Source: Leptasterias polaris (taxonomy: Eukaryota; Echinodermata; Asteroidea; Forcipulatida; Asteriidae). From it: 64,000 bases of DNA. The stretch lies in NCBI GenBank assembly GCA_037783415.1, contig JAZGTN010000150.1, positions 1,364,001-1,428,000 of the forward strand, read 5' to 3'. The notes under the pieces are model-generated. The model saw nothing but the letters and a program-made list of their open reading frames with translations, did no database searches and had not been told where the DNA came from. Below, piece after piece: positions 9,749-56,254 of the stretch. Numbering within the stretch: position 1 is the first letter of the stretch; every line of letters begins with the position of its first letter. The position numbers were made by a program, and so were the translations under genes.

Positions 9749-11280
9749 TCACTCGTCTCCTCCATCAGAAATAACAGGGTTCTGGAAGTTTGAAATCAAA
9801 CAAGCTACTGTCCAAATTTGGTTTATAGTTCCAAACATGGATACAGGGATCAATGACTGGAAAATTCTGAACCTTTTGACTTTTCCTATGGCTCTTTCTA
9901 CATGGATTCGATGTTGTGCCACAGTCTGAGCTCGTATGATGTCTTTTTCACTGAAGCAACCCTTTTCCCTCAGGTAGGGGGGAACATTTAATTTTAACCC
10001 AAGTTCTTGAAGGTCTTCTCCAATATTAAAACCCCGATCTGCCATGATACCGTCCCCTGGCAGGATTTCTCCACATTCAAGTTTCATTTTTAAAACAGTG
10101 AGAAACCCACTTCGCTTTACTATTTCTTTATCGCTTATTGACCCTTCGAAAAGTTGCGAAACAAACATCACACCACCCATTGGGTCTACGCCAATCAATG
10201 ACTTTAGCGTAGTATGGTGCTTATAGTTGCTGTAGCACTCACTCTGTTTCTGAAGTGAACTTGGCACTTGAACAGTTAGTTCAGTCGCATCTATGATTAT
10301 GACCGTGTCTTTATATTTTTCTTGAAATTCCTTAGGTGACTTTTGGATGATTATGTCTCTGTGTGGCCAAATGTTCAGTGTTCCCAGTGCTACGTACAGT
10401 AGATTTATCCATGTTATTATTTTGTTTGACACGGTACTGTTAGAAATGTTGAAGCGTTCTGCAAGGTCCAGATTTTTTGCCCCGGTTCGTAACTTCATAA
10501 GGGTTAACAAAAGTTCATTTTGCACTGTCATTTTATATGAACTGTTTTGAATTAAATCTTTCTCTTCATCTCCTGCATCATGAAATTCATATGACGATTC
10601 ATTAAGTAGCTGTTCAGTATCAATCAGTCGTTGTTTACTCGCTTTGCTTCCCCAGTAGATCACATCTTCATTGTCCAAAGTTGGACAAACAAACCTTAAG
10701 AACTGCTTGAACCTCTCATATGATGCCATCCCAGTGAAATGCATAAATAGTTCATGCTCGATCCTTTCATTCTTACACTTAGAGAGTAAATGATTGATGC
10801 TGAAGGCATGATTACACGGCAACTTAGTATCCACCTCAAAATCATCCTCATTCCATTGAGTTGATTGAGATCTTAAAGACGGCTTTTGAGCATCCAAAAT
10901 TTCACATTCTCCTTTGGTAGCTGAGTCAGTTTCTTCATCAAGGTCCTCTTGGATTTCTCTCCTCTTTTTAATAGCCGGTCGTTCATCTTCATCAGAAGAA
11001 TCTGATATGTCTCCTGGACCTGGCTGTGTCCATGAAAATTTAGACGTATAAGTGGCTTTCGTCGGGTCCCTATTCCAGTAAAGTCACTTGTCTTGAAATG
11101 ACTTGAACATATTTTTGAAGAATTTGTCAGTGCAACATGGCGCCTGTCTCTTTTAATCTTGTTGAACCAATGTTGAAGTAGCTTACGATCATTTACATGC
11201 AATGGGAGATTGTGAAAGGAGAGTTCAGTGTGCTCATCTGAAGTATTGTGACAGTCATATGCAATGCAATGGTGAGGCAT
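9749..11280 (-). pseudogene. THAP-DDE_4 transposase of ISL2EU, one probable frameshift
   Basis: Translation starts at 11280. A THAP DNA-binding domain comes first: Cys-x4-Cys in MPHHCIAYDC, a central Trp (LLQHWFNKIK), and Cys-x2-His in KICSSHF. A one-base shift near 11040-11055 moves the frame. The downstream frame reads KFSWTQPGPGDISDSSDEDE, then an acidic/basic linker, an HTH (LLLTLMKLRTGAKNLDLAER), and a DDE_4 catalytic core. Its acidic residues are Asp in IIIDATELTVQVP, Asp in IMADRGFN and Glu in HVERAIGKVKRFRIF. The core ends at the stop at 9749-9751. The N-terminal 135-residue and C-terminal 382-residue frames overlap by 25 bp. This is the recombinase that would cut and paste the element. 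The shift could be decay or a sequencing error. Confidence 0.8.
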
Positions 11281-13873: not shown

Positions 13874-14187
13874 TTAAAGGGCCTATGCAATGCATTTTTT
13901 TATTAGTTAAAGTCATAAAGTAATCCTACCTGAACAAATATTTACCCATTAAACCTTTGGTTTCATCGTGTTTATGCCATTAAAAAAATAAAAAAATATT
14001 TTAGGGGTGCCCAGCACGCCCCGCCCATTCCCTCATTATCATAAGAATGTGTGACGTAGACTAGGGAGATCGGCTCACTTCCTGGTTCTACGTGTTGTGT
14101 GTCACACGCATACTGTACCGTGTGAAGTTTCTAAAAGTTTCTTCAGTTTGTCGCTGCTTCATCAAAAAAATAGGGCATTTATTCAGA

Positions 14188-17100
14188 ATGCCACCGACCT
14201 GTGTTGTTGCTGGTTGCAGCAACACCACTAAGGATGGTTTCAGTCTCCATCGTTTTCCCTCTGACCCAAAATTTCGAAGAATTTGGACGGCGAAAGTCAA
14301 GCTGACTCGGGCAAAGTGGTCAGGGCCAACCGAGCACTCGGTCATCTGTTCCGTGCATTTTGAGACCGCTTGTTTTGCTCGAAACCCCAACGATCAACAA
14401 CACTCTTTTGGGATAAAGTTCAAGGCGATGCTTCGTCCCGATGCTGTGCCAACAATATTTCTAACTAGTAAGAAAAGTGACCAGGTGGGTGAAAAAGAGA
14501 AGAGGAGGGGAGCATTTGCTAAACGAGAGAGACTCAGGGTAAGTTTTTTTTACATTCAATGCGTGCGTGCGTGTGTACGTGTCGTCGTTGTTGTTCTGTA
14601 CACATGTGCACATACATGTGCGTCTACAACCCCATGTACTTTGTACATGTACTCTGTACATACTTCCTTTGCATGTACATGTACAATTTATTAAACGTGT
14701 GTTGATGTTGACGGTGTCATGCAAACTTGCAAGGAGGAAGAACCCTCCATGGTGTGTGCGCATGGAGGTAGAATTACCTCCATGGTGTGTGAGAGCGGGT
14801 ATACTTTTATTTGTGCCTAAATCTTCTTTTAGTTCCATTTGTTGATAAAACATAATAAACCCTAAAACATAATAAAACAGACACTTTTTGAGACAGGTTT
14901 GGGGTAGAAAAAAATCTACGTACGATGGCACTTTTAATTTTTTTTTAATAAACAAATTGGAATGGGAATGGTAATGTATTCTGTCATCAATATTTTTATT
15001 TATTTGTATTTTAAATTAAGTCTGATCATGGTCTGATGAAAGCTCACTGATTATGAAGTTCATGCCAGTGCCAGTCTACCATATTTGAATTTGAAGACAC
15101 TGATTTTAATTTTGGTTGTACTTGTAGCAACCACAATTAAAAGCAGTGTGTTTACAATGGTAAAAAAGGTGCAGATGTTTTCACTACTCCTGACTCGGGC
15201 AACGAATGAAGCGCAAATTTTCACAGGCTTGTTTTTTCATGTATACATTGAATCACATAAAGTAAAAACGCCGAGTCATCAGCTTTACCAATCCTATTAT
15301 TTAACAATTACTTTTGTCTGAACTGTTGTTATAGGCAAACATATTTTTTTTACATTTTCATTATACTGTAGCATGAAGCAACTAATCAAGTTTGTTTTTC
15401 TCTGTATTTCTGTATTGTGGACAATAAACAAAAGCCAATAATTTAAACATGACACCTCTATTTGCTGTACTGATTACTAAAAAATATTTTTCATTTGTTT
15501 AATTGTTTGTTCACTGGCTATTCCTAACAGGTTCTGGAGGATGTTCTACCACAGAAAAAAACTAGAAGGGAGAGCAACCAAGTTGTAGAGACTGGTGACG
15601 CAGAAGAGCAAGCAGGATGCAGTAATTTCTGCATAGAAATCCCTGTGGACCAAGAGTGTACTACTGCTATTCCAAGTGCGGTGGTAAGTTCCTCAAATTA
15701 TAGCCCTGTCACACTACTGTTAAAACATTAGAAAGGAACCAATGATTAATCTTCTCGTTATTGTAGTATCTAAAAACATTAATTCAAAGCAACTGATGAT
15801 GGGAAAGATGCTTGAAAAAATAAAAAAGTATGTTGTTTAATGCCCTTCATTTTTTTTTCAATTTACATGTACAGAGTTCAAGACAATACACAGACGCTGC
15901 ATGTCAGACAGACCCTGTGAGAATTCAATGTGATAATATTTGTAAGTATTAAACTGCATGCAATTGTCTTGTCCATTTAAACATGTTCCACAGTAAATTA
16001 AATATTTACATACATTTTTTTTTCAAAGTTCATGATTGTTAACCAAACATTCATTTTTCTGATAGGTGTTGAAACAGGAATACAAGCTGCACCTGAAGTT
16101 AATGATGCTGCAATACTATGCAAGCTGTTGGATGATGCAAAGGTTGAGGATGTACCAATGGAGTCTCAAGACATTGAAGATGAAGAAATAGAAGACGAAC
16201 AACAGCGCGAAGATTCTCCAGACTACGAACCATCATCATCATCATCATCTTCATCATCTTCATCACCGCGTCGGGCCCAATCATTCAAAAAGTAAATAAT
16301 GAGAATTTATTGTAAAAAGCAACATCGTCAATATAAGTTTTATAAAATAAATAGGGGGTGGTCATAAGTTTAGGCACATTTAACCTTTTCCTTTGAAAGT
16401 GAGTGGGACCTACTTTTCCTACCTACAGTAATTGTGCTTTAAACAATTTTGTACCCTTATGTTTTATTTTTCTGCGTTTTGTCAACAGAAGGGGGAGAAG
16501 TCCTCGAACAGTGGAAACCACATCAGATGTTCATCCTCAAGATCATCCGAAATACATCGTCTTCGAGGGGGAGCTTTTGAAGCCGTTCAAGAAATGTTTT
16601 AAGTGCGGCTCCCGGAATGTTTCTATCACGAAACGTACCACGGGCACATTTATTTCAATATTCCAGAGATGTGGGGCCTGCAAATCGAAGGAAGCATCCT
16701 GGAATTCTCAGCCATGGCTCGGTGCGACTCCTGCAGGAAATCTGCTGCTGTCCTGTTTGCTGGTGCCGGCCCCTCACAGACCCTCCGAATGCTGACCAGC
16801 ATGGGTGTTGCATGTATTTCACTGCGAACATTTTTTCACCATCAGAAAACAAATCTGATGCCATCTGTGGAGTCAGTGTGGGCAGAGCACATCAGTGAGG
16901 TGAAACAACAACTGCAGCTTGCACGTCAGCCCCTGGTCATAGGCGGAGATGGACGAGCAGACAGTCCGGGTCACTCTGCCAAATATGGGAGTTACACTAC
17001 CATCGACTTAACCTCCAACAAGATTGTTGATATCCAGCTTGTACAGGTGAGTCTTTGATCCTAAGGAGTTATGTCGATGTACATGTGATTCACAGGAGAA

Positions 17101-19093
17101 ATGGTTATCACCAATTAATTCCAACACCATGTGGGCTTTGTGCTAACAAATATTCCATTTGTCTTTCTTTTGGCAACTAGTACAGATAGTTACTTATTCC
17201 TATGTGTTTTTATTTTCAGAGGATGTTTCTGTCCATTCATGCTTTGATTGACTCAAATTGAAAGTTTGTTAGTAATACTCCTCCAAGTAACTTCTTTCAT
17301 TTTGAATTTGTTTGTTAGTGTAATGAAGTGAAGAGCAGCTATCACATGGAGCTTGAAGGCTTTAAGCGAATGATGGAAACCCTCCGTGAAGCTGACCTCA
17401 CTGTCAAAAAGCTGGTTACTGACCGTCATCGATCATTGGCCAAATATGTGCGAGAGAATGAGCCAACAATTCTCCACATGTATGATGTCTGGCACATAGC
17501 AAAAGGTAGCAGAAGTTATGGATTTTGTGTTATAGCTGACCATAAATACTCATTTTGATGCCCTTAAAAAAAAGTGTGTTCTGAAAGTACAAGGTTTTTT
17601 GATAATAAGGGGGAAAATGCCAACAAATTGTCTGTGGACCAAAAGCATCTGTGCACAAAATTGTAAATAATTGTCTGATGCAACAATTCCTTTCTTTTTA
17701 TTAATAACAGTTATTGTAATGCTTTTACTTTGATGAGTATTTTAGACTTATGTTTATTTATGTTTTGTTTCCCCATTTTATTTTTTTAGGAATCAAGAAG
17801 AAGATTAATGTGGTGGCAAAGAAGAAAGGGTTTGAAAGCGTAGCAGAATGGAAACGATCAATCAATAACCATGTTTATTGGTGTGCATCTTCCACCAACG
17901 ATGCTGAGGAAGAACTGAGGCTAGCCAAGTGGACCTCAGTGTGCAACCACATCGTTGGGGTTCATAAAGGTCATTCTGTCCTCTATCCCAAGTGTGACCA
18001 TGGCCGTCTTGGGAGGCGAACAAAGAAATGGTTAAAGCCAGGTAACAAAAAATAAATTACACTTTATTGCTTCCTCCTGCGGGTTTTGAATGTACATGTA
18101 GGTGTTATGAATTCTCAAACAAAACAATTGTAACAAATCAGGTTTATTTTCTTTAAGGAACGGAGGCAACTACCCAGCTGACCACAATCCTGGAGAGTAC
18201 TTCTCTCAAGAATGACATTCGAAAAATGTCATCCACAGCACAGACTTCGTCCGTAGAGAGTTTTCACAGCCTGATCAACTTATTTGCGCCAAAGATGAAG
18301 GCCTTCTCATTTGAAGGCATGACTTGCAGGTGAGCCCAAAAAAGAGTGTTAAAATTGTTTAATTTATACGTCTGTGATTTTTTGAATTTAAAGAGGTGCT
18401 TTGTTTTGGGCACCTATTTTCATGGATTTGTTATTCCTTTTGTGTTGTTGAAAATTGTATAATTTTCATATTTGTTCAGGCTGCACATTGCGTGTCTACA
18501 CTACAATGAAAACAGCAACAGAAGCCAGGCTACCACTTTAGAGGGCGCTAAGATGTTTCACCTCAGTAAGCCGAAGTTTAAGCCAGGTGAAGCTACAGTA
18601 AAACCACTCAAAGAAGCCGCCTCCTTCGGTAAGGGTCTTTCTTCAGCAATTTTATCAAATTTATGTGCCAGGCCTTTATACATTTTTACCTGTTGTGTGT
18701 ATGCATACTGCCAAAATTATTTCTGGCTGTTGGACTATTTGAAAATTTTGAATAAAATTAATGGTAAATATTTAACTTCTGTTTACCCAATTTCTTTCTT
18801 ATTTGTATATTTCTTCAATGGGGGGTTTTCTGTTGCGCCAAGTGTGCAAAATGGAAGTTTTTTACTGCCAAAGACATTTTCTTGAGCAATTTTCAAGATG
18901 GTTGTAATGACTGTACCGTTTCTTGTACACAGGATATGTCAAGACTCTGTTTGGAGAGGCTATCCGTCGATGCTGTTTTGTTGTACCCAACACTGATGCT
19001 CCTGCCATACCCCCTGCCATGTCTAAGAAGTACACTTTTCCAGAGAAAGATGTTCTTATCTCAAGGCACAGGAGCAGATTTAATAAACTTTAA
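14188..19093 (+). CDS. THAP-domain DDE transposase, Kolobok-like, ten exons, one frameshift
   Basis: Exons: 14188-14538, 15531-15683, 15875-15941, 16066-16291, 16489-17046, 17319-17505, 17790-18041, 18158-18329, 18480-18628 and 18933-19093. All junctions are GT-AG with matching phases. Exon 1 is a THAP domain (MPPTCVVAGCSNTTKDGFSL, a Trp in RRIWTAKVK, CSVHF, AVPTIF). Exon 4 is acidic with a poly-Ser run. Exon 5 has Cys pairs (KCFKCGSRN, RCGACK), then GGDGRADSPGHSAKYG; exon 6 has VTDRHRSLAKY and HMYDVWHIAK; exon 8 has SSVESFHSL. I infer that these supply the Asp/Asp/Glu catalytic triad. The frame shifts once near 16745-16755 within a CTG run in exon 5. A second decayed copy lies at 53.4-56.3 kb. 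Confidence 0.75.
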
Positions 19094-19846
19094 CCTTTAA
19101 ACCCTGTGGGGAGTAGTCCATTAGAAAATCCACTATCGGAAAGTGTGGCGCCCAAAACTGGTGTTACAAAAACAACACCAAAATATTTGTGACACATAAT
19201 CCTTTAGTGTCTTGACTCTTATTTACTCAAGTTGTTTTGCTGTGTGTTGTTTACACGTTACAAAGGCTAGAAACAGGTGCATTGAGTATGTCAACCTTTT
19301 ATTTTACTATATCGGCTGGTTAGTGCAAAAGTAATCGATATAACAGCTTAACAAAAATTGAAGTAAATTGTTTTCTGTTGACCCATGAGTCCCAAGTATA
19401 GTGAAATTAATTATTGATAACTGAGGCATTCACATATCGAAAATTTATTGACTTTATTAAGTTACATACACCTAAAATTCCCACTTTTCTGTGGTACAGG
19501 TTGGCAATATGTGATTAATTGCTTTAATGGTTATGGAGGGACCCTTCTTATTACTGTGATGAAAAAATAAGACTGACATTAAAAAACACTAATGAAACAC
19601 TTATTTGAAGTTTTAAATTGTTTTAATACAAGAACAAGAACATAAACGAGTCAGCTTTCACGAAAGGAAAATAAAATAGTAGACTTTTTTATTTTGGTGT
19701 AGTACGCACTCCATTCAGTTCGGAAAGTTAAATCAAGTTATTTAGTTTAATCGCTCTGGTTGACTTTTCAGGGTTATTCATAGTTTTTTGCCCCAAGTTT
19801 TCTGTGAGGGGAAAAATACAAAAAGTGGGAATAATATCATGCCTGG
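19094..19846. other. Non-coding gap between the convergent Kolobok genes
   Basis: AT-rich sequence with no supported reading frame; it would hold the two facing 3' ends. AATAAA-type strings lie just after the transposase stop (19081-19086 overlaps the end of the frame). Confidence 0.5.
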
Positions 19847-21050
19847 TTATGTGTCAACAAATCCCTTGTACGCTTCATCATTTGTGGAGAACGTCTGTCG
19901 GATCTTGTTGACAGCACATGCAGGAAGAACAACTCGCACTTCCTTCCCAAGATAGCCCCAGCACCATCTAACAAGCTGCCTGTATGCAGTATGGCGATAT
20001 TTCCTGATGAAGAAAAGAAATGTAAATAAAGGACAATGTGAAAGTAATTGACAAATTAAATTGTATGTCTATTTCATTTAATTTTATAAAAAAAATTTAA
20101 ACGTCAGTCACAGATGCATATTACTAGGGGTCATTCATGATTTAACTTACTGGTTTTCTGTTCCCTCCTGGGCCTCTCCACCATACTGTTGCTTGTACTG
20201 ACGATATGCAGTATCCAGCACCCATCTATCCAAACAAACAGTTCTGAATCCTGGATGTTCCGTTATACAGTCAATATCCAGAATGAAAGACTCCGTCATC
20301 CTGAAAGTGGCATCTACTTCCTTACAGCACTTGCTCTCTCGAACGCTGGGCATTGGAGTGCACTTCTCACACTCACACCTGGAAATAATTTGTTTTAATG
20401 GAACAAGGTTTACCGATTTATCAAAATGCAAGTAAAGTGGACCGTGGAAGCCAAAAGACTGCATCCAAACTTGGTCTATTAATATTTGGTGCAAGCATTG
20501 AGTGGTGGTACAAAAGAAAACATCAATGACAATTTTTAGAATGATATCAGCACTTGAAATAGTCATGCAACGCTCTGTACTTCGTATGTGTTAAGTTAGC
20601 ATGGATGGTCACTAAGCAAGTTTTTTTGTTCTGCCTTCGATCGATTGAACTCGAAGTGCATGTTAAATAAATTCAAGGGTGATGTCTAATTAAATAACCA
20701 AAATGAACTAATTGTACATGTCATGAGTTATCTAGAGTATGGTTTGGTTTTCAGAATGTATGTCATGACATCATCAAATGTTTAATTGACTGCAACAAAA
20801 TTTGGAAAATATTTATGTATCGATAAACGTACCAGTTGGTGTTTCCAATTCTTGCAACATGCTCTTCGTCTTCCGAATCCGACTCGGATCTAGAGCCATC
20901 GTCGTCGCCTCTCTCTGGCTCGTACATGTATGGCCGAACCCCTAGCTCCTCATTTCTTTCATAGTCACTGTCAGCCTCACTACTTAAATCCGAAGAATTA
21001 CTCCCCGAAAATTCTTCATCTACTGCTGAAAATGATGAAGATTCGGCCAT
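19847..21050 (-). CDS. P2X7-ballast-domain-like protein (P2RX7_C type), 200 aa, transposon-borne
   Basis: Three minus-strand exons, 20833-21050, 20151-20378 and 19847-20003, join with matching phases (2 and 2) into 200 codons plus stop, with no break. Exon 1 is Ser/Asp/Glu-rich, contains RPYMYEPERGDDD and ends at IGNTNW. Exon 2 is Cys-rich: CECEKCTPMPSVRESKCC, then ITEHPGFRTVCLDRWVL and TAYRQYKQQYG. Exon 3 reads YRHTAYRQLVRWCWGYLG, VVLPACAVNKIRQTF and AYKGF. The order of Cys clusters, 'RH-AYR', 'LP-C-IR-F' and 'Y-GF' follows the C-terminal cytosolic ballast of vertebrate P2X7 receptors, which binds zinc and guanine nucleotide. There are no P2X membrane segments. It is convergent with the transposase. 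Its role for the transposon is unknown. Confidence 0.75.
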
Positions 21051-21430
21051 GTTCGTCTTTTTATATCACGTCCGTCGTAGTGATTGTAAATGTACAATGC
21101 GTTGTGTGTACTGTAGGAATTTCCGCGATCCGTGTGTGTGCATGTACGTAGCGCATCAGCTGCCACATTAGCATGGTACCCGCAACATATTCTTGGTACC
21201 AGACCATTCTGACTTGCTTATGAACGCTCCGCAGTCTACGTCACGAACAGCGCCCCCGCGCGGCGTAAAAATAAGGAATTTAATTAATAAAAATATTTAT
21301 TGCCAATTTGAAACATTTTACACTACTCACACAAATTTTTTTTTTTTTTAATTGTATACAGAAAGTATGAATAAACTTTAAAAAAATAATTTCTACCTTG
21401 TGAAAAATAAGTATTGCATAGGCCCTTTAA

Positions 21431-21628
21431 AGGAAAGACTATGCGAGCCAGTGTTGATGATGCAATGAAGTCATTTGTTGACTTACATCGGGTAAGATTA
21501 AGATCATACAGTTCTCGCTTTAATATCAGTCTGTTTTTTCAACACAAACAGGTGACTGGACTGTACTGCAGCACTTGTGATTTATGGTTCCTGCCCCCAA
21601 AACCATCATTTGGGGATTCTAATTTTGT
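21431..21628 (+). pseudogene. Continuation of the reading frame broken by the Kolobok insertion
   Basis: Just past the right TTAA the frame reads KGKTMRASVDDAMKSFVDLH up to a donor GTAAG near 21492. A candidate next exon from 21551 (acceptor AACAG) reads VTGLYCSTCDLWFLPPKPSF. This frame is continuous with 13513-13873 once the transposon and one TTAA are removed. I do not recognise the second exon beyond its Cys-x2-Cys pair. Confidence 0.4.
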
Positions 21629-21639
21629 ATGTTGACTGA

Positions 21640-23665
21640 AGAGGTATTTGGTCTTAGTATCCAGGTATACTCTCTGGTTCGGGAAGTGGTGGAGGGGGCT
21701 GAGGAAGGTGGAGACGACGAGATCCGAGTCTTTGCGCAATTGATCCGACGGTCCCCATCCCGTCATAAACGAATCCTGTACCTGAATCTGCATGGTAATT
21801 ATTTTTCATTTATCAAGAAAATCGAAATATACAGCCAGGCGTACTCTTGCGTGAAATGCGGCTACGTGTCACACAGGGAGTTTAACCTCCGTCGTCACCA
21901 GCACTCGTGTCAGGCGAATGTGAAACACAGCTTCCCCGGTGGTGGTTATCGAGTTCCCGCAACCATCTTCGAAAAACTGGAAGACTTGGGGATTCACGTT
22001 GCAGAGGAGAACAGATTTTTCCCCTATAGAGCCAGTACCGGAACATTTGCAAGGCCGAGGAAAGGTAGCGTGGGAAAAACGCCATGAGCTTCTGAGCTGT
22101 AGCGTAGCCAGCAATGTCCCTGGATTAGAGGAGGCAAAGTGTTTTGTCACCGAAGGAAACTCTACCGAACTGGTGAAAAAGATGGTCAGCCATCTTCACA
22201 CAATTTCAAGTGCTGCCTACGACTTACTTAAAGAGAAGTACGCCCACGTCTTTCGAGCCCTTGACGAGCAATTGAACAATACAAATAGAGAACGGATGGA
22301 TGAGGACGGTCTGCCCGATAGAGATGCGGCAGGAGAGGGCGAACAGAAGCAGTGGAGACATCCTGCTGAGAAGGTGAAAAGTGCACTGGACTCTTACTTG
22401 AAGGAGCTTCCAGTTCTTGGTTTCAACTCGGGTAAGTATGACGTAAACTTAATGAACAAATATCTCTATGCGGAACTTCAAATGGTAGACCCATTAAAAT
22501 TCATTGTCAAGAGAACCAGTACTATATGGCGATTAAAACAGACATGCTAAAGTTTCTAGACATAACAAACTACCTCGCCCCAGGGTATAGCTACTCCAAG
22601 TTTCTAAGAGCATACAATGTTCACCAACAAAAAGGGTTTTTTCCGTACGAATGGCTAGATTGTTTAGGTAAGCTCGACGCAACTTCCCTACCTCCCCATG
22701 CCGATTTTTACAGTAAATTGAAAATTGGGAACATTTCTGAAGAAGAGTACAATTACTGCAAAGAGGTTTGGACCACTGAACAAATGCAAACAATGAGAGA
22801 CTTCCTAACATGGTACAATAATTTGGATGTGTTTCCATTCTTAGAAGCAGTCGCAAAAATGTTCGACTTTTACAAACAAAGAAGAATGGATATGTTCAAA
22901 TGTGCCATATCGGTACCCGGTCTGTCCTTACGTTATCTCTTTCTGACTGCCTGGTGAGACTTTCTTTTGGTGCATTTGTTAGGCGAAAGGCGGAAGAAAG
23001 TTTCAAACCTGAGCAGAGTAAGAAATGGGGGGTTAAAGCAACGGAATGGCTTGAGTGGGAAGCGCGACGTGTTGGGGTCAGTATAGAACATAAGTTTAAT
23101 GGGAAAGAACTTCGAATAGGGTCAACAAATATTCCTGTTGATGGTTTTTGCCGACAGACAAATACTGTGTACCAATTTCACGGGTGCAGGTGTTTCAATA
23201 ATATGACAGAATACTATGAAATAGGAAGTAGAACTAACGCTCAACTCCGAAATAACACTGATAAAATAGCCTCATATATAAGAAGTGAGGGGTACAATCT
23301 TGTTAAAATGAAGGAGTGTGAGTGGGAGACTAGAATAAAAACAAGCCAGATTTAGAAGCGTTTCTAAAGTCAGGCCGTCTCCCGCTCCATAGCAAAAAGT
23401 CACTGACACAGCGTCAAGTCATTGACTTCATCGCTGATGGGACATTATTTGGTCTAGTAGAGTGTGACATCCGTGTCCCTCCACAACTAAGAGAAACATT
23501 TGAGGAAATTACCCCAATTTTCAAGAACGTAGAAATCACCAAAGAGGACATAGGCGATCACATGCAAGCCTTTGCCGAAAGAGAGGGTGTTATGAACAGA
23601 CCCCGAAAAAGTCTGATAGGAAGTATGTTTGGTTCAAAAATAATGCTCACTACTCCTCTTTTACC
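21640..23665 (+). pseudogene. Remnant of family-B DNA polymerase (exonuclease part) with inserted endonuclease-like domain
   Basis: Broken frames in order: a segment with a Cys-x2-Cys...His finger (YSCVKCGYVSHREFNLRRHQ) and FPGGGY-x-P-x-x-FE; an exonuclease-like part with GFNSGKYDVNLMNKYLY (Exo II type) and WYNNLDVFPF (Exo III type); then a separate domain with NIPVDGFCRQTNTVYQFHG and ECEW, resembling a PD-(D/E)XK nuclease inserted in some selfish-element polymerases. The Exo I Asp-x-Glu motif is not seen: the frame breaks near 22040. The palm motifs are missing, both between 22957 and 22985 and after 23650. Breaks lie near 22040, 22530, 22957 and 23350. It is a dead copy of a self-replicating element whose exact group (Polinton-, virus- or plasmid-like) I cannot fix. 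Confidence 0.55.
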
Positions 23666-23818
23666 TTTTCTCCCCTCTTTTCCGTCTACTCCGCTATTGG
23701 AGTTTTTTCCACTTGCTTTTTATCTGTATACTATTTCTGGAATCCCTTTTGTATCCACTTATTTTGTATTTATAATATATTAATGATTCTTCATCTTTTT
23801 CCTAATTATCTGTGTGCA

Positions 23819-24210
23819 GGGTGGATGAACAGAGATTTTATGGATGGGCAGAGAAATGCTACCGCAGGCGCCCGGACGCTTCCTTGAACAAGATGGCAAT
23901 GCTGGTGCTTGATTCCATGACATCACACAAGGATGAGCACATCCGGAAGGTTTTTAAGGCAGAGCATGACACCATTCTTGGGGTCATTCCTGGCGAAGGG
24001 TCTTCACACGTTTACGGCGACAGGGAGGATGCCGGGAGCTACACATGCCGAGGCTTCATAAAGGCACAAATCATCAGGGGAGCTAAGGAAGAAGAATAAC
24101 AGTTATCCGACTCTGGTGACGTGGAGCGACTGCATGAGGAGATGGCCGCTCTGTTCTGCAGCGACAGTGACGACAGCAACTTTGAAGGCTTTGACTTGCA
24201 GAAACATCTC
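23819..24210 (+). pseudogene. pogo/jerky-type DDE_1 transposase fragment
   Basis: After an acceptor-like TGTGCAG the frame reads VDEQRFYGWAEKCYRRRPDA, then MAMLVLDSMTSHKDEHIRKV and TILGVIPGEG. Leu-Val-Leu-Asp-Ser-x2-x-His followed by Val-Ile-Pro-Gly is the second-Asp region of DDE_1 (Tigger/pogo/CENP-B-like) transposases. The frame then passes to a TAA at 24096-24099 and, after it, DSDDSNFEGFDL, a C-terminal acidic tail seen in this family. The segment between VIPG and the tail, including the third acidic residue, is deleted. Confidence 0.55.
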
Positions 24211-24299
24211 AAGCCAAACAAAACCACTAGCTCTTTTCAGAGCTACCACTGCTTGCAAACCCTAGCAATACACTTTCAACCAAGACAGATTTCTTTGGT

Positions 24300-25490
24300 G
24301 AGGAGCTCACATTAGTTGAAACGCAAAATACGCTTCAGCAGGCTCCAGTTGATCAAGCATTGTTTGTTGTCATGATGGAAAAGTGTTTGTCAAACATCAT
24401 CACTGTTATAGAAAGACAATACAAGAGGTATTTCGACTCAGAAATCACAGATGAACTTGGTCAACAAACCCAATTAGCTTCATGCCACAATGTTGATGCT
24501 GAGGAAATAATGGGTATGTTTAGCGCTGTCAAGGCTCATGCCCCCAAATGCTACACTCTGCCACTTGTTGTCTAGAATTCGAACTCAGAAGAATCAAATA
24601 GGCAAATACGAATATCTCGACAAACTGGAAGAAGACAAAATGGAAAAACTGATTAAGCTTTCAGTGTCTCTGGGAAAAGCAACGACAGATGAAGCGTAAA
24701 AAGTGCCACTAATTAAAAGAGGAACTGTCAAGGAGAATATGATGCAAAAAACATCCAAAAGAGAAAAAGTTGAAAAAATCTCGAAACAAGAGTTTCGAAG
24801 CTTCACAAGAATTTCTTGACTTGGATGATAGCGTTCAAGAGAATGTGCAAAACATCTTAACTGGGAAAACCGTGGGTTGTCGAATATATCATATTTGGTA
24901 TAACGAACATTCAGAAATAAAAACAATGTACGAGGGTAAAATTGAAAAACTAAAAGCAAAACGACTACATTCTGCAAACACTCTTGGTCGAGGACTTCTA
25001 ACCATCTCCTGATGACAAGACCTTTCTCATCATTCTCTGTCCAGTCCCACCCGTAGGTTATGTCAAAGCATACGGTAAGAAAAGATGTCTTCAGGTTTAA
25101 TACCTACATTGTGTAGCTTCCCTCTTTTGGAAGCGCTGGAGAAGGGAGTATCTCCCTTTGCTTCAAAAACAACAAATGTAGAGGTAGGTGACATAAGATG
25201 GAACCGTCCCTCAAACAAAGATAAAGGTGAATTTTGGTTCACTGATGTCCCTAATTTCAAGAAAGATCAACCGAGATGAAGAAGGAGTGATTAAAGAAGG
25301 GCTTAGCCAAAAAGGGGGAAAGGAGAAGCAAAAGAGGATAGTCAAGAAGAGAAGTATTTGAACCTGCAGCCTGTATTTCTTTATCCATGGAGCCTTTTGT
25401 CATTACTGCTGTAGAAACAACAGCTGTTGCTTTGAACAAACTTATTACTTATTACAGGAAACCAGTCACTTACATCATTGTGCATTAAAT
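24300..25490 (+). pseudogene. Degraded coding block, family not recognised
   Basis: Short frames broken by stops look protein-derived: EEIMGMFSAVKAHAPKCYTL (about 24500-24560), a Lys/Glu-rich run, GCRIYHIWYNEHSEIKTMYE (about 24880) and TTAVALNKLITYYRKPVTYI (about 25410-25470). They lie in order on + and in different frames, consistent with a decayed mobile-element gene. I cannot name the family. Confidence 0.3.
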
Positions 25491-53454: not shown

Positions 53455-56254
53455 TGTTTACGATATGCAGGAATTCAAGCATCAGTTACGACAGCTGAAA
53501 AGGGCTTATGGGCAAAGCCAAGTCAAACGTCCACAGGGATTTTATGTAAAATCCCCGACGACAATCTCCATAAACAACAGCAGGAAAGGTCTGATGAGGA
53601 CGACATGGAGATTGACAGAGTCTCCAGGTTATCTGCCGGACTCTTCTGGATCATCAACAGATTGCAGCACCCCCAAGAAAAAAACTAAAAGGCCCACTAA
53701 AAGGTAAACTTACTTGTTTATACATGTAATAACTTGTTTTAATAGTTTTCGTAAAAGTGGTCTTCAAAATTAAAATTTTGTGGTTTGTTTTTTGTTTTTT
53801 TAGGAAGCGAGGACTCAGTCCCCGCACCATTGTAGACAATGCACCCAGCAGGTCTATTCCTCCACAAGATGAGAGGAAGTACATCGTCTTTGAGTCACAA
53901 CTTCTCAAGCTGTTTACAGCTTGTAGTAGTTGTGGTTCGGGTGTTGTGCAAGTATTCAAAAGGGAAAGCGGCACCCTTTTAACCATGTGGATGGAGTGTG
54001 GGAGCTGCAGCCATGAAGGGGAGAAATGGGACAGCCAACCATGTCTTGGCAACATTCCAGCTGGCAACGTATTGTTGTCTGCTGCAACCTTGTTCTCGGG
54101 AGGAAGTTGCTCATCAAACCCGTTTTCTGCAGCCAGCAATTGAGAAAGAGTGGAAGAAGCAACGCAAGCAAATAAAACAGCAATTGTTGAATGAGGGAAA
54201 ACCTCTCATAATTGGTGGGGATGGTCGTGCGGATAACCCTGGACACTCGGCGAAGTTTGGCACATACACCGCAATCGACCTCATTAGCAACAAGATAGTG
54301 GATATTCAATTAGTGCAGGTAATTGTTCACTTGAGCTCAGCTCTTGCCGTTTCTTATTATTTATTATTTATTATTATGTTTCTATTTTTCATATTTCGTG
54401 TCTCTTTGGCGGTTGTTTTCATTGTTATAGTTCTTGCATTTTCAATAAGGTGTATGAAAATTAATAAATAGTTTACTTTTGTTTTTAAATCCTCTCAGAG
54501 TAACGAGGTAAAGGGCTCCTATCACATGGAGTTGGAAGGCTACAAGAGGATGACCAAGTATGTCAAGAAATCGGGCCTCACAATTGAAAAACTCGTAACA
54601 GACAGGCACCGGCAACTTGCCAAGTACATACGGGAGAAGTCGCCTGAAATACTACATATGTATGATGTCTGGCATGTAGCAAAATGTAAGTTAGTGTTGT
54701 CTCCTCCTGTTTTTATTTTTAAAGGTAGCCCTATTCCAAGTATTTTCGGTCTAAGGTCATGTGCATGCTACATTCGGACTGAATGCCATTTCAATTACAG
54801 GGCAGTATTAACCTTTTTTTATATTTTGTATTAAAATTAAAATTTTGTATTAAATACAATAAATAAAATTTGTTTAATCTCCAGCGGTTAAGAAGGTGAG
54901 AGAGAGCCTTATCACAGAGAAAGGGGTTCGATGAGGTACAGAAATGGATCCGGAGCATACACAACCATGTGTATTGGGTGGCGTCGTCCACTACTGACAA
55001 AGAGGAGGAGATGAGAGAACACAAATGGCTCTCCATTGGAAACCATCTCCAAGGAGTCCATGAAGGCCACTCGGATATATTTCCACGATGTCTTCATGGC
55101 GACTTACAACTCCAAGAAGGCACACAGAAACGCAAAGAGTGGCTTAAGTCCGGTAAATAACGATATTAGAGGTGATAATGTACATTTCCTAGACCATATT
55201 CAATACATAATATTGAAAATAATGTTGGTTCATGCTGCAGTTAAAAATAAAATAAAAATGTATTTCTGAAGAAAAAAAATCATCAAAAAACATACAGATG
55301 GAAACTGAGAAATATGATTTTATCCCTGGTTTTGGAAGCAGCACAATCTACATCAGTTCATTGCAAACAGTGATTGTGAACTTTAAAAGTAACACTTCCT
55401 GCTTTTTGTTGCTAAAGGTACTGAGCCATGTGTCAAGTTGACAGAAATGATCAGCAATACAATGCTCCTTAAAGACATCAGAAAGATGTCGGCAAGTGTT
55501 CAAACCTCCTCATTGGAATCATTCCACAGTGTATTTAACCACTTTGCACCCAAGTCAAAGGCCTACTCTTACTATGGAATGATCAGCAGGTAGGTCATTT
55601 TTGTTTACAATAAAAAAACATAATTAGGCATTTGCTGATTACTTTTGTCTCGTGTAAAAAAAGTTTCCATGACACAATTAAATCGAAATAGTTTGTTTTC
55701 ATTTAAATATAGAATCACAAATTAATGTTAAAGCTAATACAAAGGTAAAACTTCATCAGAGATTGAGTTTGGTAATCAACTATGATAAGTTATGTTATTT
55801 ATGTTTGATTTGGAATTTGTTTTCTATTTTAAGGATTCATCTCGCTGCACTTCATTATAATACTAACGCAGAAAGGAAGCAGGCCATCACACGCACGGGA
55901 AAAAAAAAAATTGCCTTATGCAAAGGAAGGTGCAGCAACAGTTAAACCAAAGAAGGAACCAATGAACTTCAGTAAGTTTTTTCTTCATGTTTAAAGGGTA
56001 ACTTGCTCATGTAAAAAATACATTACCAGAAACCAATTTTATTCATTTGCATACAGTTTTATTCATGTCAAATTTTTTTAAAACTTTTTAACAGCATATG
56101 TTGCCCCCCTGATGAACAAGGTAGTGAAGCTCAGTGCAAAATCCACCCTTCCACCAACACGCAAGAAAGCACCTCCAACACTTTGTAGCAGGTATACATA
56201 TCCAGCTAAAGAAGAGCTTATCAAGCAACATCGAAGTCGCTTTAGCCTTAAATG
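53455..56254 (+). pseudogene. Second Kolobok-like transposase copy, decayed
   Basis: The exon order follows exons 4-10 of the copy at 14.2-19.1 kb. It starts with GIQASVTTAEKG and continues GYLPDSSGSSTDC, RGLSPRTIVDNA, CSSCGSGVV, GGDGRADNPGHSAKFG, VTDRHRQLAKYIRE, HMYDVWHVAK, NHVYWVASSTTDKEEE and SSLESFHSVFNHFAPK, and ends RYTYPAKEELIKQHRSRF at a TGA. The three Asp/Asp/Glu regions are present. Frame breaks are near 53620, 54105, 54930 (an extra G before TTCGATGAGG) and 55910 (a poly-A run). The THAP exon and exons 2-3 are not found upstream. The donor after HVAK is altered. This divergent relative confirms the exon structure of the first copy. Confidence 0.7.

Follow-up and report, generated by a model that had tools for sequence, protein, structure and literature searches.

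Why does a sea star genome carry, between what appear to be transposon ends, an intact gene whose product resembles the cytosolic ballast domain of a P2X7 receptor? The gene lies in a stretch of 64,000 nucleotides of Leptasterias polaris DNA (contig JAZGTN010000150.1, positions 1,364,001 to 1,428,000; hereafter the window, numbered from its first letter). P2X7 is a major inflammatory receptor, and we know of no counterpart of its ballast in other P2X channels.

We hold with high confidence that the gene is the KolX gene of a Kolobok cut-and-paste transposon of the Kol0 kind, whose two convergent genes encode a THAP-DDE transposase and a two-zinc protein with the ballast fold. On this reading, KolX would have an accessory role for the element, and the P2X7 ballast would have arisen by a later fusion, with a short-loop class of KolX-like proteins as its closest relatives. 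The element ends, an empty site, further copies, the domain itself, the predicted fold of a close homologue, and the repeated pairing with a transposase in this genome support the reading directly. A sequence-only reading of the same DNA had suggested a transposon accessory gene as the source of the ballast, which is plausible and, as it has already been published by Kojima and Bao (2022, PMC9587614), not new: their main text assigns the ballast fold to KolX of the Kol0 Kolobok elements and describes P2X7 as the product of a P2X4-like gene that fused with KolX. To this the window contributes a separate case, one for which the ends of the element, a site lacking it, the number of copies, and a predicted fold are available.

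The Element and Its Ends

The element is delimited by the following features:

13874..21430 (+): whole Kolobok-type DNA transposon, including both TTAA copies (terminal inverted repeat (TIR) and TTAA pair, ends shared elsewhere, empty site)
13874..13877 (no strand): left TTAA target-site duplication (TTAA pair, empty site)
13878..13891 (+): left TIR, AGGGCCTATGCAAT (inverted-repeat comparison)
21413..21426 (−): right TIR (inverted-repeat comparison)
21427..21430 (no strand): right TTAA target-site duplication (TTAA pair, empty site)

The 14-bp TIR matches perfectly between the two ends, which form the sole TTAA-flanked pair in the whole window with at least 13 of 14 matching bases at a distance of 400–14,000 bp; a perfect 14-bp TTAA-flanked pair appeared in none of 500 shuffles of the region. 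The termini read AG...CT, in agreement with the 5'-RR...YY-3' termini that the main text of PMC9587614 gives as a feature of the Kolobok superfamily. The TTAA target-site duplication, likewise a Kolobok feature, is found in the window and in further insertions, and as a single TTAA in an empty site (C58:8771300-8771900), where both flanks of the window element meet within another copy of the repeat that surrounds it. In all, TTAA stands on both sides of eight insertions (the window element, the copy on contig C173, and six shortened derivatives), representing seven distinct flanks, as those of derivatives L016 and L017 are identical.

Database names such as "P2X purinoceptor 7-like" would invite the view that this is an ordinary host gene, flanked by transposon sequence by chance. 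We consider this extremely improbable, since the empty site lacks the entire stretch with the gene in it, two other places have that stretch with the same right end, and derivatives of about 1 kb keep both ends together with part of KolX exon 1. The gene thus travels with the ends, and the prospect of finding it apart from them was not borne out.

The KolX Gene and Its Product

The gene consists of three exons on the minus strand:

20833..21050 (−): KolX exon 1, acidic Ser-rich N-terminus, PYMYEP motif
20151..20378 (−): KolX exon 2, WCECEKC, CC, and CIT zinc-cysteine motifs (P2RX7_C match)
19847..20003 (−): KolX exon 3, RHTAYR, LPAC, IR, and Y-GF motifs, stop (P2RX7_C match)

Both introns are GT-AG and phase 2, and the coding sequence of 603 nt specifies 200 amino acids and a stop, so that the claim of an intact three-exon gene between perfect TTAA copies holds in its exons, intron phases, TIR, and empty site. 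The proposed likeness of the product to the P2X7 ballast was likewise borne out by the profile comparison suggested with it: the 200-residue product matches P2RX7_C (PF20478) with an E value of 4.6e-20 and 72.8 bits, against a curated cut-off of 23.5. Among PDB sequences, four P2X7 entries are the sole matches up to E 1 (best E 2.6e-6). All seven zinc-coordinating cysteines of the ballast are present, with WCECEKC, CC, CIT, and LPAC aligning with P2X7. A structure prediction, also proposed earlier, yielded the ballast fold for the Acanthaster homologue P0002, which was modeled in place of the window protein and is 78% identical to it. Of the five guanosine diphosphate (GDP) contacts named for rat P2X7, R546, H547, and R578 have counterparts in window KolX, from which nucleotide binding by KolX is perhaps conceivable.

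The product thus resembles the P2X7 ballast (ZCD, PTHR36981, P2RX7_C; main text of PMC7016195) in the order of its zinc cysteines, in the RH-AYR, LP-C-IR-F, and Y-GF motifs, and in its predicted fold. Unlike P2X7, it has no P2X channel domain, a Pfam scan of the 200 residues returning P2RX7_C only; its loop between the CC and CIT motifs counts 18 residues rather than 6, and its domain gene has three exons, whereas the P2X7 ballast is encoded in one. Compared to Kol0 KolX as described in the main text of PMC9587614, the window element shares the TTAA duplications, the two-gene layout with a DDE transposase and a P2X7-ballast-like protein, and the seven conserved cysteines, a second protein with the ballast domain being a feature of the Kol0 lineage; it differs in being a new family, from a sea star.

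The Transposase of the Element

The transposase exons lie on the plus strand, convergent to KolX, as the sequence-only reading had claimed:

14188..14538 (+): THAP exon, end approximate (PF05485, E 4.6e-18)
16490..17046 (+): exon carrying GDGRADSPG, with the first catalytic D; start approximate, reading frame disrupted near 16740
17319..17505 (+): exon with the second D (TDRHRS) and DxxH (DVWH) (below-cut-off Mutator/MULE Pfam matches)
17790..18041 (+): exon with a Cys/His (zinc-finger-like) stretch
18158..18329 (+): transposase exon
18480..18628 (+): exon carrying HYNEN, whose E is likely catalytic (identified by eye)
18933..19093 (+): final exon, including the stop codon

Pfam comparison of the single DDE exons gave Mutator and MULE matches, all below cut-off. 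Read by eye, the C173 copy has GDGRADSPG, TDRHRS, DVWH, the Cys/His stretch, and HYNEN in this order, which corresponds to the Kolobok signature of D, D, C/DxxH, zinc finger, and E as judged against the description in the main text of Kojima and Bao (PMC9587614). The best of 675 transposase homologues is from Acanthaster planci (84%).

Copies, Derivatives, and Possible Coding Constraint

A search of the genome (629.7 Mb in 334 contigs) with the KolX gene DNA returned two more near-full copies (C173, 99%; C9, 96%), one partial copy (C87), and 36 further places that match only in part of exon 1. The seven of these that were fetched (L012–L018) are all internally deleted derivatives of about 1 kb, corresponding to 13874-14366 joined to 20893-21430; they retain both ends and, between them, the beginning of the THAP exon and a portion of KolX exon 1, except that L013 is without the exact left end.

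In each of the three long copies (the window and both near-full copies), KolX has an open frame. Relative to the window, the two near-full copies show changes in 2 and 4 of 200 codons, and in 4 and 13 of the 601 sites in the introns. Between element families, the nonsynonymous divergence (dN) of KolX is 0.21–0.39 over 36 codons, with synonymous change (dS) saturated in nearly all pairs: dS was uncomputable in 15 of 21 pairs, two pairs with dS above 1 gave a dN/dS of 0.084, one within-family pair gave 0.606, and the other three pairs were identical or uncomputable. The open frames and this dN against saturated synonymous change are consistent with a protein kept for use.

Genome-Wide Pairing of Ballast and Transposase

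The P2RX7_C profile matches this genome 148 times, at 143 places after merging (241 candidates, 150 scored), and none of 14 control genomes; the transposase core exon gave 102 matches at 65 places. A transposase exon is found no more than 8 kb away at 37 of the 143 ballast places, against a chance expectation of 0.24, and all of these pairs are convergent save one on the same strand. Conversely, a ballast match is present at that distance or less for 38 of the 65 transposase places. When 30 ballast loci (29 places) were taken with 1.5-kb flanks, a transposase end was present in 8, and 28 shared more than 300 bp of DNA with another locus of the set.

These numbers bear on the possibility that KolX is a passenger, that is, a host gene that an ancestral Kolobok took up on one occasion, with no role for the element and with the ballast having first been a host domain. 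The main text of Rump et al. (2020, PMC7016195) treats short ballast proteins as the products of ordinary animal genes to which two markers are linked, in keeping with such an origin, but the convergent pairing with a transposase recurs across divergent families in this genome and would be hard to keep without use, and the DNA that 28 of the 30 loci share with another locus of the set also speaks against it; we regard passenger status as distinctly unlikely. The same main text reports ballast proteins across animals, with fewer than 10 such genes per species, as compared to 143 places here. This offers a reading of the scatter of "P2X7-like" proteins over invertebrate genomes: many of them, at least in this genome, are encoded by transposons. 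Rump et al. further describe an Ixodes protein in which the ballast is combined with a "TAHP" domain, presumably THAP, as well as zebrafish nanor/nanor-b, a short host-encoded protein with the ballast domain only, which the main text of PMC9587614 regards as a domesticated KolX. The terms "transpos-" and "THAP" are absent from the main text of Rump et al. As a guess, the linked markers in the legend of their Figure 6, which covers sponge to sea urchin, could themselves be transposon genes, the transposase being one candidate.

For the most copied ballast family (L032, L034–L036, L041–L048), no common ends could be settled, as the boundaries within the 3-kb loci vary by subgroup. A search of the 30 three-kb loci for a TTAA and TIR pair gave one match, in a simple A-rich stretch, judged to be chance. 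Among viral contigs, there were 65 pattern matches, none of which could be confirmed as a relative.

A Proposed Role of KolX in the Element

We hypothesize that KolX is made by and for the element as an accessory transposition factor. It would act as a helical adaptor, compact and held together by zinc, whose N-terminus is acidic and disordered, and would aid the transposase or its DNA complex. We judge this the most likely of the roles considered, at a probability somewhat short of even. KolX could instead be a counter-defence protein that blocks host silencing or DNA sensing and takes no part in transposition itself: it is encoded by a separate gene, transcribed in the direction opposite to the transposase, and it is intact in all three long copies even though the window transposase is broken. 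Its product shows no likeness to a known silencing inhibitor, the Pfam scan giving the ballast profile alone, and we rate a counter-defence role as unlikely, if less so than passenger status.

Several observations weigh against our main reading of the gene and its role. The transposase is not intact in the window, its frame being broken in a DDE exon near 16740. Two other copies are without this break, and the second near-full copy is without 169 bp around the THAP start, such that no complete autonomous copy was seen. In the lists used, 106 of the 143 ballast places have no transposase core exon within 8 kb, and 22 of the 30 loci with 1.5-kb flanks contain no transposase. The near-identical KolX copies differ by three silent and three replacing codons in all, which is too few to demonstrate selection among them. 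Finally, two of the GDP contacts of rat P2X7, R574 and K583, are not kept in window KolX.

A Short-Loop Class Closer to P2X7

A second version of the ballast gene lies at C133:140822-141376 (−), with the domain in one exon and a score of 134.7 bits to P2RX7_C. It sits within an element that runs from TTAA at 132847 to TTAA at 142642 of contig C133, with a perfect 15-bp inverted repeat and, on the plus strand, Kolobok-like transposase pieces at 135067-135921 and approximately 136654-136842. A copy on C184 has the same two ends with an inner length of 6,021 rather than 9,788, a broken ballast frame, and no transposase match at E 1e-4; two further copies share the end adjoining the ballast gene. 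Beside the ballast gene within the C133 element is a Cys-rich open frame (L051:5279-5653, −), also found in the C184 copy, and the C133 element contains a 1.7-kb insertion with 29-bp inverted repeats (L051:188-1917) that the C184 copy is without.

Six residues separate CC from CIT in the C133 protein, just as in P2X7 of human, rat, and mouse, compared to 18 in window KolX. Among homologues of the window protein (109 in all), 86 could be measured, and 85 of these have a spacing of 15–31; among those of the C133 protein (120 listed of 131), 96 could be measured, and 88 have a spacing of 4–7. The latter list is enriched for C133 relatives because the C133 protein was the query. On these comparisons, ballast proteins fall into two classes, a long-loop class that includes the window protein and a short-loop class that includes the C133 protein. 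P2X7 scores 98–107 bits against the short-class profile and 37–44 bits against the long-class profile. The window gene is therefore a relative of the P2X7 ballast in kind, as had been proposed, but not its closest version, which by loop length and profile score is found in the short-loop class.

In a tree of 138 rows and 119 columns, in which P2X7 is represented by three mammalian sequences, with neither fish P2X7 nor nanor, the long class falls on one side (100/99) and P2X7 groups with four short-class rows (94/83, not starred); a further short row, P0342, is placed beside the long class, with a long-branch warning. In approximately unbiased (AU) tests, a topology with all short rows minus P2X7 as one side was not rejected (p 0.484). 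The short class is thus the better candidate donor on account of loop length, profile scores, and exon structure, and is unproven by the tree. We consider it somewhat probable, from these sequence comparisons, that the P2X7 ballast descends from the short-loop, single-exon class encoded by Kolobok elements, an intact gene of which lies in the TTAA element at C133:132847-142642, and not from the long-loop, three-exon class, with P2X7 having gained the domain later by the fusion proposed in the main text of PMC9587614. Descent from the long-loop class of the window, with independent shortening of the loop, is improbable: placing P2X7 with the long class was not rejected either (p 0.313, log-likelihood 10.26 lower), but the loop of 6, the profile scores, and the grouping with short-class rows all point the other way.

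The distinction between the two loop classes was not found in the literature searched, including the text of PMC9587614 apart from its supplements, and the KolX proteins of Kojima and Bao may belong to either class. What is new here relative to the published link is this second, short-loop version on another transposon of the same genome, closer to P2X7. The split thus opens a possible route to naming the donor class, and hence to asking which function the domain served prior to its fusion with the receptor.

Other Features of the Window

At 53802-56246 (+), the window contains fragments of another Kolobok-type transposase (best E 1e-55); the searches for a ballast match less than 8 kb away and for a pair of TTAA-flanked TIRs were both negative. 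A weak tblastn similarity to THAP-Kolobok proteins (E 9e-8) is present at 10951-11280 (−). The element itself is inserted in another repeat, and its right flank, 21431-24600 (+), runs into open frames, within which 22442-22954 weakly resembles DNA polymerase B, short of the profile's cut-off (PF03175, E 0.0034).
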